NCBI GenBank assembly: GCA_003152095.1
Contig: PLZI01000013.1
Coordinates: 1 to 47,092 of the forward strand
Length of the DNA stretch: 47,092 bases
From: Acidobacteriota bacterium
GTDB lineage: Bacteria > Acidobacteriota > Thermoanaerobaculia > UBA5066
Direction: 5' to 3'
The notes under the pieces are model-generated. The model saw only the letters and a list, made by a program, of their open reading frames with translations. It made no database searches and was not told the DNA's origin. Within the stretch, counting starts at the first letter, position 1, and each line of letters starts with the position of its first letter. The translations under genes were made by a program, and so were the position numbers. Positions 29,256-38,882 of the stretch are shown here, piece by piece.

Positions 29256-29291
29256 CCTGCGCGGCGTGGTCCGGCAGGTCGAAGACGTCTC

Positions 29292-30275
29292 TCACGAGTG
29301 CCGGCAGCCCGAAGGGCAGGGAGGAAGAGGAAGATTTCTTTGAATGAGGTTCATTTTGCGGAGCCTGTTCACGCGAGCCGCAGCACAGCACGGTGGGGCG
29401 GCCAGCGCGTCGGCGTCCCAGAGGTCCGCGAGGACGAGGCCCGTCGCGGGGGCGCGCCCTTCTTCACCTTCAAAGAAGTCTTCCAGCGCCATTTCCAGAT
29501 CTCGAAGCGTCGGGGGCTGGAACTGACCTTGCCGCCGGAGCTCCTCGAGGGTTCCGTTGCCGAGGCGCGTCGGAATGAGAGAGACGGTTCCGGCGCCCGC
29601 TCGGAACGACGTCTCGACGCTTCGCCGGGTCGCCGCCGCCCATTCTTTTCTTGGAAGAAACGGGAGTCCGACGAGGACGAAGACCCGGAGAGAGATCCGG
29701 TTTCTGAGAAGGAAAGAGGCGGCGGTCCGAAAATCGGCGACGGTCATCCCCTTATTCAATCTTCTCAGAATCTCCTCGTTGGCGGTCTCGAGCCCCAGCG
29801 CGACCTCCAGACGCGGGCCTCCGAGGAGATCGCGAAACCTCAGACTCGAATCGTCGACGAGGGCGGGATGGCATTCCACGACCACGCGCTCGAAACCGCG
29901 CGCGAGGGAAGCGATCTCCTCGTGGTCCTCCCTCGGGATCGCCGCGCGGTCGAAAAAGCTGCCCGCGTTGTAGAGCTTCAGGGTGTCCGCCGGCGGGAGT
30001 CTTTCGAGCGCGAAGCGGATCTGCTGCGGGATCGCGCCCTTCGGCGTCGGCGCCTCGAGCGTGTTCTTCCAGAGGTCGCACATGAGGCAGTGCCACGGGC
30101 ACTCCCGGTTCGTCAGCAGAATCGTCGCGGCCCGGAGCGTGCCGCCGTCGCCGCGGGGTTCCTCCTCGACGAAAAAGCCATAGGGGCGCGAGGGATCGAC
30201 CGCGTCCCGAGCGGGCCGGAGGCCGAGGACGAACTCTTCGCGCGCCGCGCGGTCCGCGGCACCCAGCTCGATCAC
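29292..30275 (-). CDS. radical SAM protein, COG1244/RaSEA-like
   Basis: A 327-residue radical SAM enzyme. The cluster motif is ECPWHCLMCDLW with Cys59, Cys63 and Cys66 (CxxxCxxC), followed by the SAM-binding region, GLETANEEILRRLNKGMT, and SLIPTRLGNGTLEEL near residue 250. The last pattern resembles the COG1244 family, whose archaeal member RaSEA works in archaeosine synthesis; I recall similar bacterial proteins with no assigned role. The C-terminus holds a Cys pair (PPCCAAARV) and a final Cys that could bind another cluster. Start GTG 30275 overlaps the stop of the asparagine-synthase-like gene (GTGA). The substrate is unknown. Confidence 0.85.
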   Translation of the reverse strand: MIELGAADRAAREEFVLGLRPARDAVDPSRPYGFFVEEEPRGDGGTLRAATILLTNRECPWHCLMCDLWKNTLEAPTPKGAIPQQIRFALERLPPADTLKLYNAGSFFDRAAIPREDHEEIASLARGFERVVVECHPALVDDSSLRFRDLLGGPRLEVALGLETANEEILRRLNKGMTVADFRTAASFLLRNRISLRVFVLVGLPFLPRKEWAAATRRSVETSFRAGAGTVSLIPTRLGNGTLEELRRQGQFQPPTLRDLEMALEDFFEGEEGRAPATGLVLADLWDADALAAPPCCAAARVNRLRKMNLIQRNLPLPPCPSGCRHS

Positions 30276-31615
30276 GCCGCGCCGACGTATCGAGAGAGGA
30301 ACGCGGTGCGGTACTGCGCCTCGGAGAACGGGAAGCGCCGCGCGAAGACGTCCTCCCCGCCCGCACCGTGCTGAAACCGGCGCTTCGGGTAGACGGGCAT
30401 CTCGAGACCGGTGATTGCCTTGACCCCGCGCGCGACGATCTCGCCCTTCAGCGCGTAGAGCCTCTCGACGCTTCCCTCCGTGAGCGCGTCGAAGGGAATC
30501 CCCTCGGCTACGGCGATGACGCGCGGGCGCGTGAACGGGCTGAAGCCGGAGAAACCGTATGCGCGAAGCGGCGCGTAGGTGCGCGCGTACGAGCGGCTCT
30601 GGCCGCCGCTGTATGTGTCCGAATGTTTGAGTGAGCCGACACCCCATCCTTCCTGATAGAGCATCAGGTTGTTCACGACGCTCCTGATCGTCAGCTCGGG
30701 GTTCTCCTCGATCGGATAGTCCTTCAGATTCTCGTCGCCGCCGTCGCCGTCGAGGAGGAAGCGCCACTCGGGATGGCGCGCGCGGATGCCGCCCAGGAGC
30801 GCGAGCGCCATCGTGGCGGACTCCACGTCGCGCGGTTTGTAGTCCTCGATGACCCGCACGGCCTCTTTCGGGTCGAGAGACGCCGGATCGACCTCGATGT
30901 GTTCGAGAAAAAAGCCGAGGTCAAGCGCGCCGAGGAACTGCCGGGCTTGCGCGAGATCCGGGCCCGCAGGGCTCGGGCCGCTTCCGGCCGAGAGCGTGAA
31001 GGCCTTGAGACGCGCCGGGCTGATGCCGAGGCGCCGGAGGACGTGATGCGTCACGAGAAAGACGGCGCCGCTGTCGATCCCGCCCGAGAAGCAGACGCCG
31101 ATCGGCTCGGCCATCGGAACCGTTTCGATCCACTTCGCGATCTCGTCGGCGAGCGCGCCGACGTAGAGGCGTCCGATCTCGTCGAGATCTTTCGGCAAGA
31201 CGTTACGCGCCGGCGTAAACGTCCGCACGTAGCTCGGCGCGGGATCCGGACAGCCGACGAGGCGCAGCGTGACGATGTGGTGCGCCGGTACCATGCGCGT
31301 GTAGCTCGGGTGGAACTGATCGCCGTGCCCGTGTGTCGCGAGCCACTTTTCGAGCGTGTCGATCCGGTCCGCCACGACGAGGATGGGGCCGTCTTTTTCC
31401 TTCGCGAGGAAGTACCGGAGCGGGCGGTCAAGCGATCGTGCGAGCCGCACCGTGATGCCGTCCACGCCGACGAGTGCATAGGACCCGTCGAGGGCGGAGA
31501 CCGCTTCCGCATCGCCACGTGCGACGCGCGCGCGCGCCTCCTCGAGCGGGATACCGGAGAGGACGTTGAGGGCGGGATCGGTGAGATCGACGACGCGGGC
31601 GATGGATCGGTACAT
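30272..31615 (-). CDS. asparagine-synthase-like PP-loop protein with degenerate glutaminase domain
   Basis: A 447-residue protein. The C-terminal synthase domain has the ATP pyrophosphatase loop FSGGIDSG at 176-183 and the second site LLDGDGGDENLKDYP, so adenylation of a carboxylate is expected. The N-terminal 130 residues resemble the later half of an AsnB glutaminase domain (ALDGSYALVGVDGITVRLARS, ADRIDTLEKW, TRMVPAHHIVTL) but the catalytic Cys at position 2 and the region around it are missing; the protein starts with MYRS. It is therefore not a normal glutamine-dependent asparagine synthetase. Lasso-peptide cyclases and beta-lactam synthetases show the same loss. AGGAGGT precedes ATG 31615. 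It sits between an exporter and a radical SAM enzyme in one operon. Confidence 0.85.
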   Translation of the reverse strand: MYRSIARVVDLTDPALNVLSGIPLEEARARVARGDAEAVSALDGSYALVGVDGITVRLARSLDRPLRYFLAKEKDGPILVVADRIDTLEKWLATHGHGDQFHPSYTRMVPAHHIVTLRLVGCPDPAPSYVRTFTPARNVLPKDLDEIGRLYVGALADEIAKWIETVPMAEPIGVCFSGGIDSGAVFLVTHHVLRRLGISPARLKAFTLSAGSGPSPAGPDLAQARQFLGALDLGFFLEHIEVDPASLDPKEAVRVIEDYKPRDVESATMALALLGGIRARHPEWRFLLDGDGGDENLKDYPIEENPELTIRSVVNNLMLYQEGWGVGSLKHSDTYSGGQSRSYARTYAPLRAYGFSGFSPFTRPRVIAVAEGIPFDALTEGSVERLYALKGEIVARGVKAITGLEMPVYPKRRFQHGAGGEDVFARRFPFSEAQYRTAFLSRYVGAA

Positions 31616-31641
31616 CGGACCTCCTGAGATTCCAGAGGATC

Positions 31642-32550
31642 CTAACGCGCCGGGGCCGGGCTTGTCGGCCGGCGCGCGACGCGCGTCAGCGCCAGGCCGG
31701 CAAGGATGACGGCGGCGGAAGCGAGCTTCTGCGCATTGAAGCGCTCGCCCGTGAGGAGCGCCGACGCGACGCCGGCGAGAACCGGTATGAGGAAACCGAA
31801 GCTCGTCGCTTGCGCGACGCCGAGCGTGCGTACGGCCCCGAGCCAGAGGCGGAAGGCGACGACGAGGGGAAGGAACGTCGAGAGGACGGCGATCGCCCAC
31901 GTTGAGGGGCTCAGACGCCCGTAGTCCTGCCGGAGCATGTCGGGCAGGGTGTATGCGAGAACCAGGACGGTACCGCCTCCGAACGCCGCGAGCTGGGTGC
32001 CGAGAGGCGAGAGGAGCCGGCTGGCGCGGGCGGACGCCACGTTATAGACGGCCCAGGACGTGGCCGCTCCGAGGCACATGAGGTTTCCCGCCGTGCTACC
32101 GAAGTCAGGTCCGCTGGCCGAGCTGACGAAGAGCGCGACCCCGCCCCAGGCGACGAGAGAGCCCGCGCCGGCGAGAGGCGACATGCGCTCCCAGCCGAAG
32201 ACGACGACGAGAAGGATCGCGATGAGCGGCGAGACCGAGTTCAGGAGCGCCGCGGAGAAGCTGCTCGTCGAGGCGAGCCCGAGCGCGTAGAGCCACTGGT
32301 ACACGCCGACACCGGACAGGGCGAGAACGAGAGCGAGGCCCCGCGCGCCGGGCGGGGGCACGAGGCGCTCCCGCCGGACGAGCGCCTCGGCGATGAGAAA
32401 CGCGGCGGCGAGGACAATCCGCCATCCCGTGAACGCCAACGGGGAAAGCTCGCGATAGACGATCTTCGTGGCGGGGTAGTTCACGGCCCAGATCACGACG
32501 GACACGAGCGCGGCGAGGACGGCGAGGGGTCGCGATAAAGGCGCCGGCAC
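31642..32550 (-). CDS. EamA/DMT-family transporter
   Basis: A 302-residue membrane protein with about ten helices in two EamA repeats, each beginning with a conserved pattern (VIWAVNYPATKIVYRELSP and GAATSWAVYNVASARAS). The second repeat has the end SFGFLIPVLAGVASALLTGE, typical of the drug/metabolite transporter superfamily. Members export amino acids, nucleotides or other small metabolites. Start GTG 32550 is preceded by a GAGTGAGAAG purine stretch. Its stop is 26 bp from the ATG of the asparagine-synthase-like gene on the same strand, so it is probably the first gene of that operon and may export its product. Confidence 0.88.
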   Translation of the reverse strand: MPAPLSRPLAVLAALVSVVIWAVNYPATKIVYRELSPLAFTGWRIVLAAAFLIAEALVRRERLVPPPGARGLALVLALSGVGVYQWLYALGLASTSSFSAALLNSVSPLIAILLVVVFGWERMSPLAGAGSLVAWGGVALFVSSASGPDFGSTAGNLMCLGAATSWAVYNVASARASRLLSPLGTQLAAFGGGTVLVLAYTLPDMLRQDYGRLSPSTWAIAVLSTFLPLVVAFRLWLGAVRTLGVAQATSFGFLIPVLAGVASALLTGERFNAQKLASAAVILAGLALTRVARRPTSPAPAR

Positions 32551-37365: not shown

Positions 37366-37382
37366 GCCGGTCAGACCTTCTT
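37354..37382. terminator. bidirectional hairpin formed by two convergent gene ends
   Basis: AAGAAGGTCT (37354-37363) and AGACCTTCTT (37373-37382) are perfect inverted copies around a nine-base loop. The arms encode the last residues (KKV) and the first two bases or more of the stop codon of the DUF4340 gene on one strand and of the pentapeptide gene on the other. There is no long U-run. Confidence 0.5.
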
Positions 37383-38882
37383 CAGCTTCCCCGCTGGCGC
37401 GCGGGTCGTCGTTTCCTTCTCTTTGTCCTTGGGCGCGTCGGCGTCGCGCCTGACTCCCATCGCGCGTGCACGCTCGTCCGCGCTTCGCTCGAGCGTGGCG
37501 AGCCGGGCGAGCCGCTCGACCTCATTCTGGCGCTCGGACTGTTCGCTCTTCTTCTTCGCCGAGCCGAGGAGTGAGCTCGCGGCGAGGACGAGCTTCAGGT
37601 GAAACTGTCCGGTGAACTTCGTGTTCTCGCCGAAAGCGCCCACGAAGGACGAGCCGCTGAGCCGGGCCTCCGAGAAATCCGCCCCTCCGATGTTCGCCTG
37701 CTTGAACGCGGCTCCGTCGAGCTTCGCGCCGACGAGCTGGGCGAAGCGCAGGTCGCTTGCCGAGAAATCGGCGTCCTCGGCCTCGACGCCGAAGAGGTTC
37801 GCGCCGGACAGGTTCGCCCCTACCGCGATCGCGCTCGAGAGGCGCGAGCGCTTCAGGTTAGCCCGCCGGAGGTTCGTCCGCGCGAGCTTGACCTTGGCCA
37901 TGATGCAGCCCTCGAGATTCGCCTCGGAGAGATCGGCGCCGGAGAGGTCGGCTTCGGTGAAGTTCGAGCCGCGCAGGTTCGCGCGCATGCCGTTCGCCTC
38001 GAGGAGGCGCGCGGCCGTGAAGTTCGGAAGCCGCATGCGGGGCGTTCTCAGGTCGATCTTGTCGAGCGTGGCGCCGGTGAAGTCGGTTTCCTCGAGTTGT
38101 GCCCCGAGGAAGACGGCACTCCTCATGTCCGCTCGATGAGCGCTCGTCTTGCGCAGGATCGCGTCCGAGAAGTTCGCGCCCTGGGCCACGAAGCGCTCGA
38201 GGTCGGCCTCGGAGAGGTCGGCTCCCGTGAAGTCGGCGAGGTTCGCCTCGGCGCCGCGGAAGACCGCGCGCTGGAGCTTCGCGCCCTTGAACGACGTGCC
38301 CGAGAGCTTCGCGTCGCGGAAGAACGCGAGGGTCAGGTTCGCCTTGTCGAAACGGCCTTTGCGATACGTCACGCCGTCGAACACGGCCTGCGTGAGGTCG
38401 GCTCCCTCGAAGACGGAAAGGTCGAGCTGGGAGCCGCGGAAGTTCGCGTAGAGCAGGCGGCTGAATGAGAAGTCCGTCGAGGTGAAATCGGTCCCGTCCA
38501 GCTTCGCGCCTGTCATGTCGACGGCCGTCATCACGGATTCGCGCACGCTGGCGCTGCGCAGGGTCGCGTTCCGGAAAATCGCTCCCACGAATGAAACGCG
38601 TTCGAAGAGAAGGTAGTCGAGGTCCGTTTCGGACAGGTCGACTCGGTCGAGCTTCGAGCCGTTGAACGAGGCCCCGGTGACATGGGCCCGCGCGAGGGAC
38701 GCCCCTGAGAGGTTGCAGCCCTCGAGCTTCGCCCGGGAAAGGTCGGCGCCGGAGAGATTCTTCCCCGAGAGGTCGACGCCCTGGAGGCGCACCTCGGTGA
38801 AATCGGGCGTGAGGGTGGGCCGTTCGGCGCGCCAGTCGTTCCAATCGGGGGCTTGTAGCCGTTCGAGGTGTTCTGGGTTCAC
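37371..38882 (-). CDS. pentapeptide-repeat protein
   Basis: A 503-residue protein in which residues of about 25-430 are continuous A(D/N)LxX pentapeptide repeats (for example LSGKNLSGADLSRAKLEGCNL), predicted to fold as a right-handed quadrilateral beta-helix roughly 20 coils long. A short N-terminal cap carries two Trp (APDWNDWRAE). The tail (430-503) is helical, strongly charged and ends KLKKV. Such proteins can mimic DNA and bind gyrase (MfpA, Qnr) or have other roles; nothing here decides between them. Start GTG 38882 is eight bases after TAAACT, with no Shine-Dalgarno. It is divergent from the AAA ATPase with only 38 bp between. Confidence 0.92.
   Translation of the reverse strand: MNPEHLERLQAPDWNDWRAERPTLTPDFTEVRLQGVDLSGKNLSGADLSRAKLEGCNLSGASLARAHVTGASFNGSKLDRVDLSETDLDYLLFERVSFVGAIFRNATLRSASVRESVMTAVDMTGAKLDGTDFTSTDFSFSRLLYANFRGSQLDLSVFEGADLTQAVFDGVTYRKGRFDKANLTLAFFRDAKLSGTSFKGAKLQRAVFRGAEANLADFTGADLSEADLERFVAQGANFSDAILRKTSAHRADMRSAVFLGAQLEETDFTGATLDKIDLRTPRMRLPNFTAARLLEANGMRANLRGSNFTEADLSGADLSEANLEGCIMAKVKLARTNLRRANLKRSRLSSAIAVGANLSGANLFGVEAEDADFSASDLRFAQLVGAKLDGAAFKQANIGGADFSEARLSGSSFVGAFGENTKFTGQFHLKLVLAASSLLGSAKKKSEQSERQNEVERLARLATLERSADERARAMGVRRDADAPKDKEKETTTRAPAGKLKKV

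Follow-up and report, generated by a model that had tools for sequence, protein, structure and literature searches.

What does an AsnB-like ligase do beside a radical SAM enzyme and an exporter, and do the three genes form one system? We addressed this question for a 47,092-nucleotide stretch of DNA from an Acidobacteriota bacterium (GCA_003152095.1, contig PLZI01000013.1; hereafter the window), in which an earlier note had proposed an undescribed biosynthetic or RNA-modifying system made of all three. The sequence confirms that the genes lie on one strand in the order EamA exporter, AsnB-like ligase, radical SAM enzyme, and that the four-base GTGA overlap described between the last two is real.

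29270..29306, no strand: deletion junction, halogenase gene almost wholly gone compared with genome G051 (blastn flanks meet here)
29292..30275, minus strand: radical SAM enzyme, 327 aa, RaSEA/QueL-like (TIGR01210 below cut-off, QueL profile, model pLDDT 93)
30078..30101, minus strand: CxxxCxxC, radical SAM C59, C63 and C66 (all Cys unchanged across 27 orthologues)
30272..30275, minus strand: GTGA overlap of AsnB-like stop and radical SAM start (sequence)
30272..31615, minus strand: AsnB-like ATP-dependent ligase (447 aa) that has no catalytic Cys and a shorter glutaminase-type domain (Pfam PF00733, fold, orthologues)
31070..31087, minus strand: PP-loop SGGIDS, ligase residues 177-182 (alignment of 33 orthologues and E. 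coli AsnB)
31642..32550, minus strand: EamA-family exporter (PF00892 (EamA), E 3.4e-38)

The ligase gene starts with ATG, with AGGAGGT just upstream, and the radical SAM gene with GTG; the -4 overlap between them is found in about ten related loci too, including L002, L003, L030, L034, L052, L054, L074 and L075. Further along the window (37371-38882, minus strand) the translation reads as a long pentapeptide-type repeat protein with an A(D/N)LxxA pattern.

Co-inheritance of the ligase and the radical SAM enzyme

To place the pair among its relatives, one genome per species was scanned, which gave more than 480 loci with ligase relatives, and the best 80 were kept. In these best 80 loci, ligase orthologues are 58-87% identical over their full length, and they come from Acidobacteriota, Verrucomicrobiota, Gemmatimonadota, planctomycetes, Bacteroidota and Neomarinimicrobiota; the adjacent pair occurs in the first five of these groups. 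A radical SAM gene directly follows the ligase gene in 56 of the 80, at short or negative spacing. Within the phylum of the window, 27 of 247 genomes (15 of 143 genera; 11% of the phylum) have both genes, and neither gene is present in the other 220. The probability of such agreement by chance is about 1e-36, or 1e-20 counted by genus, figures that are overstated because the genomes are related. The earlier proposal would have been undermined had the pair failed to co-occur elsewhere; the agreement is 27/27 and 220/220, and it includes unlinked cases, since the two genes are on separate contigs in 2 of the 27 genomes, and G226 and G071 are among the unlinked cases. Both genes are also under purifying selection (dN/dS 0.17 and 0.21, measured against G051, which retains the halogenase described below, so that the values span the time before and after its loss). 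Purifying selection together with perfect co-occurrence in 247 genomes argues that the pairing is not due to chance.

The exporter, on the other hand, does not belong to the set. Its gene is 26 bases upstream of the ligase gene, but among the 80 best loci an EamA orthologue stands beside the pair only in L003, a close relative, and we therefore reject it as a pathway member; it is probably a lineage-specific neighbour. Thus, of the three-gene system first proposed, the ligase and radical SAM pair is upheld and the exporter falls away. Other genes looked for around the set were not found. No short open reading frame within 5 kb of it is common to more than three loci, and a RiPP or lasso system was set aside as having no conserved precursor peptide near the maturases. 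Anti-phage defence and a phage origin were likewise discarded: there is no PADLOC or PHROGs match, and no relative in phage and plasmid collections or IMG/VR.

A putative flavin halogenase, deleted from the window genome

In 38 of the 80 best loci a flavoenzyme gene lies downstream of the radical SAM gene, again at short or negative spacing. Its profile matches over about 400 residues are to the phenolic halogenase PltM (E 6.5e-80) and the tetracycline 7-halogenase CtcP (E 6e-74), and Lys87, essential in PltM, corresponds to a Lys that is invariant in the orthologues. Where halogenases have WxWxIP, the flavoenzyme has WxWxL(R/Q), and it could instead be a monooxygenase; models of QhpG, LodB and GoxB also match it, PltM and CtcP being far closer. 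On these computed similarities, the third enzyme is a putative flavin halogenase of the phenolic (PltM/CtcP) type. It is present in 25 of the 27 genomes with the pair, and among the 247 genomes none without the pair has it.

The two exceptions, G000 and G156, are the window's genome and one member of its family. G051, of the same genus as the window genome, has the halogenase; a stretch of about 1.48 kb there (L104 2358-3841), with nearly all of that gene, corresponds to 37 bases in the window. No halogenase remnant was detected in the window by blastn against G051, and no halogenase orthologue, at ortholog level, in the window's genome; the gene is lost from this genome by deletion. The earlier reader, who saw neither a precursor peptide nor another pathway gene nearby, was right about the peptide, for the relatives as well, and missed the conserved third gene because it is deleted in this genome.

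The three enzymes stay together beyond the window's phylum and gene linkage. Verrucomicrobia genomes with a solitary ligase carry the radical SAM gene elsewhere in 21 of 24 cases and the halogenase in 19 of 24, and the three proteins are correlated in their pairwise distances (r 0.72-0.83; 0 of 2000 permutations, the species tree not corrected for). Our computations thus show shared inheritance and shared loss of the ligase, the radical SAM enzyme and the halogenase.

The ligase and the radical SAM enzyme compared with known families

The ligase scores 40.7 bits (E 3e-10) against PF00733 (Asn_synthase), exceeding the gathering score of 21, and 31.9 bits against TIGR01536 (glutamine-hydrolysing asparagine synthase), under the cut-off of 267.1; no characterised family is matched above its cut-off, so that membership in a family of known role, the other finding that would have spoken against novelty, was not observed. 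None of 33 orthologues has the N-terminal catalytic Cys (the window protein begins MYRS). In the PP-loop, S177, G179, D181 and S182 are invariant and G178 is found in at least 90% of the orthologues. In the alignment with E. coli AsnB this loop lies about 56 residues closer to the N-terminus, which reflects a shorter N-terminal region, and the C-terminal region did not align. Searches of the PDB by phmmer with single sequences gave no matches. The fold of the predicted model (pLDDT 84) corresponds to those of asparagine synthetase and beta-lactam synthetase, with E-values from 4e-13 to 1e-12 and the two scoring equally. These analyses show computationally that the ligase retains an adenylation site and is without glutaminase. 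The earlier description of an intact PP-loop with the Cys and part of the glutaminase domain missing is borne out, whereas the likeness drawn to beta-lactam synthetases does not extend to the shortened domain: those enzymes, although also without the Cys, have an N-terminal domain of full length, so the shortening is not common to both.

The ligase shares with asparagine synthetase B and the beta-lactam and carbapenam synthetases its overall fold and PP-loop adenylation site, and with the latter two the lack of glutaminase activity. It differs from the group in its shorter N-terminal domain, in its partners and in conserved blocks of its own (DGDGGDENLKDYPIEENPEL and KRRFQHG). Between phyla it is about 60% identical, and the block DGDGGDENLKDYPIEENPELTIRSV...GWGVG...TYSGG (residues 289-341) and the motif KRRFQHG (411-417) are near-invariant (alignment A1). 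Residues ~300-340 are the best conserved in sequence, yet are modelled with low confidence; the two blocks likely form the substrate site, which would become ordered upon binding.

The radical SAM enzyme has the invariant Cys of the CxxxCxxC motif and, in its model, the partial TIM barrel of its superfamily. Against TIGR01210 (RaSEA) it scores 94.6 bits (E 6.2e-27), far below the cut-off of 212, and its Draconibacterium orthologue 113 bits. By profile, the closest solved relative is the queuine lyase QueL (6p78), in a partial match (E 4.2e-6, profile 45-182); we know of no AsnB-like partner of QueL. Fold searches with the model (pLDDT 93) returned generic radical SAM matches. The enzyme appears to group with RaSEA and QueL, which cleave C-N bonds, and this cleavage is taken as an analogy, given the score below the RaSEA cut-off and the generic fold matches.

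A proposed route to a halogenated amide

The conserved halogenase points to a small-molecule pathway. That a glutaminase-free ligase has a RaSEA/QueL-like partner suggests for a carboxylate a route like that of ArcS and RaSEA, the closest precedent described: ArcS transfers lysine and must be bound to RaSEA to do so, after which RaSEA takes off the skeleton of the lysine (PMC11298593). We hypothesise a dedicated pathway in which ligase, radical SAM enzyme and PltM-type halogenase carry out the glutaminase-free amidation of an aromatic acid that is also halogenated, a tentative reading to which we give a probability of about 0.35. Beyond co-inheritance and enzyme type, we infer all of the mechanism. 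The ligase would adenylate an aromatic carboxylic acid and link it to an amino acid through the latter's amine; its radical SAM partner would then abstract a hydrogen next to the amide nitrogen and cut the N-C bond, leaving a primary amide. The nitrogen of the amino acid would thus stay behind and glutamine would be avoided as donor, as in ArcS/RaSEA chemistry but with ArcS replaced by an AsnB-type ligase. The halogenase could put Cl or Br on the ring, and the product would be a halogenated small molecule that probably works with secreted proteins of the CRTAC1/UnbV type.

We consider it probable that the product is halogenated. As a point against the proposal, the set survives without halogenase in G000 and G156; the window genome keeps the first two enzymes, and its product should be without halogen. 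No aromatic-acid biosynthesis gene was found linked to the set. The fuller claim, of a primary amide route free of glutamine and ammonia, built from an AsnB-type ligase and a radical SAM lyase, within a multi-phylum halogenated-compound pathway that involves CRTAC1/UnbV proteins, is in our opinion rather doubtful.

Alternative explanations

In an unlikely reading, to be weighed first, the three enzymes act on a secreted protein, most likely a CRTAC1/UnbV or TPR-CRTAC1 protein, and alter one of its residues before export. A model for this exists in the flavoenzymes QhpG, LodB and GoxB which, with the radical SAM enzyme QhpD, build cysteine tryptophylquinone, and the matches of the first three to the flavoenzyme of the set agree with it. 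So does the neighbourhood: secreted CRTAC1-type (FG-GAP/UnbV) genes occur in 31 of the 80 best ligase loci, in several independent arrangements and phyla, and are directly in line with the set in L005, L064, L075, L078, L118 and L120. In some Acidobacteriota the genes for ligase, radical SAM enzyme, halogenase and a TPR-CRTAC1 protein form one run, followed in L118 by UnbV and UnbU. All 27 genomes with the set encode a TPR-CRTAC1 protein (the window's genome on another contig, L135), versus 7 of 24 unselected genomes without the set (p 2e-8, phylogeny not corrected for). However, CRTAC1 proteins are also common where the set is absent, most loci have none nearby, and far closer relatives of the flavoenzyme are PltM and CtcP, whose substrates are free phenols and tetracycline. 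CRTAC1/UnbV proteins are recurrent, non-obligatory neighbours and may be partners of the set. UnbU was rejected as an obligatory part, a strong UnbU-like match being found in 8 of the 27 genomes.

Two further observations concern these proteins. In L078, L079 and L080 (Bacteroidota, Neomarinimicrobiota) the set is surrounded by several genes for CRTAC1 proteins and by others that appear to encode c-type cytochromes. The TPR-CRTAC1 protein of L118 (4724-8203, 1160 aa) and its homologues share a conserved C-terminal region of ~440 residues (720-1160) with no Pfam match.

The ligase could also be a ring-closing cyclase like beta-lactam synthetase or the lasso cyclases, with radical SAM enzyme and halogenase tailoring the ring. 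We think this a little less probable still: its glutaminase is dead as in those enzymes and one of its best fold matches is beta-lactam synthetase, but asparagine synthetase scores equally, there is no conserved short open reading frame, and genes of beta-lactam or peptide biosynthesis are not nearby.

That the pair performs a bacterial version of archaeosine or queuosine chemistry on tRNA seems improbable. RaSEA and QueL, relatives of the radical SAM enzyme, do act on 7-deazaguanines (PMC11298593). In a Verrucomicrobia clade (including L086, L088, L092 and L094-L099) the radical SAM gene lies directly downstream of rplC-rplD-rplW, at the expected position of rplB, and tgt is ~8-12 kb from the set in one family with two genera (G081, G089, G098, G132, G164, G202); each linkage, however, is confined to a single lineage. 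The set is present in merely 11% of the phylum and its third enzyme is a halogenase. Moreover, 14 of the 27 genomes with the set have no QueC, versus 15 of the 220 without the set (p 3e-8, phylogeny not corrected for), which argues against dependence on de novo preQ0. These 14 (G014, G218, G226 and 11 of family f7) all fall in one class; tgt is kept in 22 of 22 sampled genomes with the set, and the tgt and PTPS families do not discriminate between genomes with and without it. The loss of QueC is probably queuosine salvage in one lineage, and its replacement in those genomes is possible. The RNA-modifying half of the original proposal is thus left with weak hints. Finally, that these are unlinked housekeeping functions brought together by accident, as the resemblance of each protein alone to broad superfamilies might suggest, is hardly credible given the perfect phyletic agreement, even where the genes are unlinked.

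Relation to known systems and significance

The proposed amidation pathway resembles ArcS/RaSEA (PMC11298593) in pairing an amino-acid-adding enzyme with a TIGR01210-like radical SAM enzyme, in leaving nitrogen behind after C-N cleavage and in using no glutamine; in contrast, ArcS is related to TGT and has tRNA preQ0 as its substrate, whereas the set is bacterial and has an AsnB-like ligase and a halogenase. The putative halogenase keeps the catalytic Lys of PltM and CtcP but departs from them in its WxWxL motif, in having no pyoluteorin or polyketide genes around it and in its absence from the window genome. In the ammosamide pathway one aromatic acid is the substrate of both a flavin halogenase and an AsnB-like putative amidase (PMC12715798); unlike the set, that pathway has a scaffold peptide and PEARL enzymes, and no such radical SAM partner. 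Some relatives have beside the set a UnbV (FG-GAP and ASPIC) and an NqrB/RnfD-like membrane protein, as enediyne loci do with UnbV/UnbU, but the association is not universal, and a PKS-sized gene was not seen in the 20-kb regions (judged by ORF size). The literature searched holds no account of this gene combination, in agreement with the earlier view of the system as undescribed; subscription journals were thinly covered, so this is not proof. The enzymes come from known superfamilies and their combination is new to us.

Three enzymes that travel together through mostly uncultured soil and water bacteria of several phyla, with a ligase so conserved across them, imply a specific product under strong selection. 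If an amide is indeed installed by way of an amino acid, the logic of ArcS and RaSEA would be extended from tRNA to small molecules. The set has cultured carriers, Silvibacterium bohemicum, Acidipila rosea and Granulicella, in which the proposal can be tested directly.
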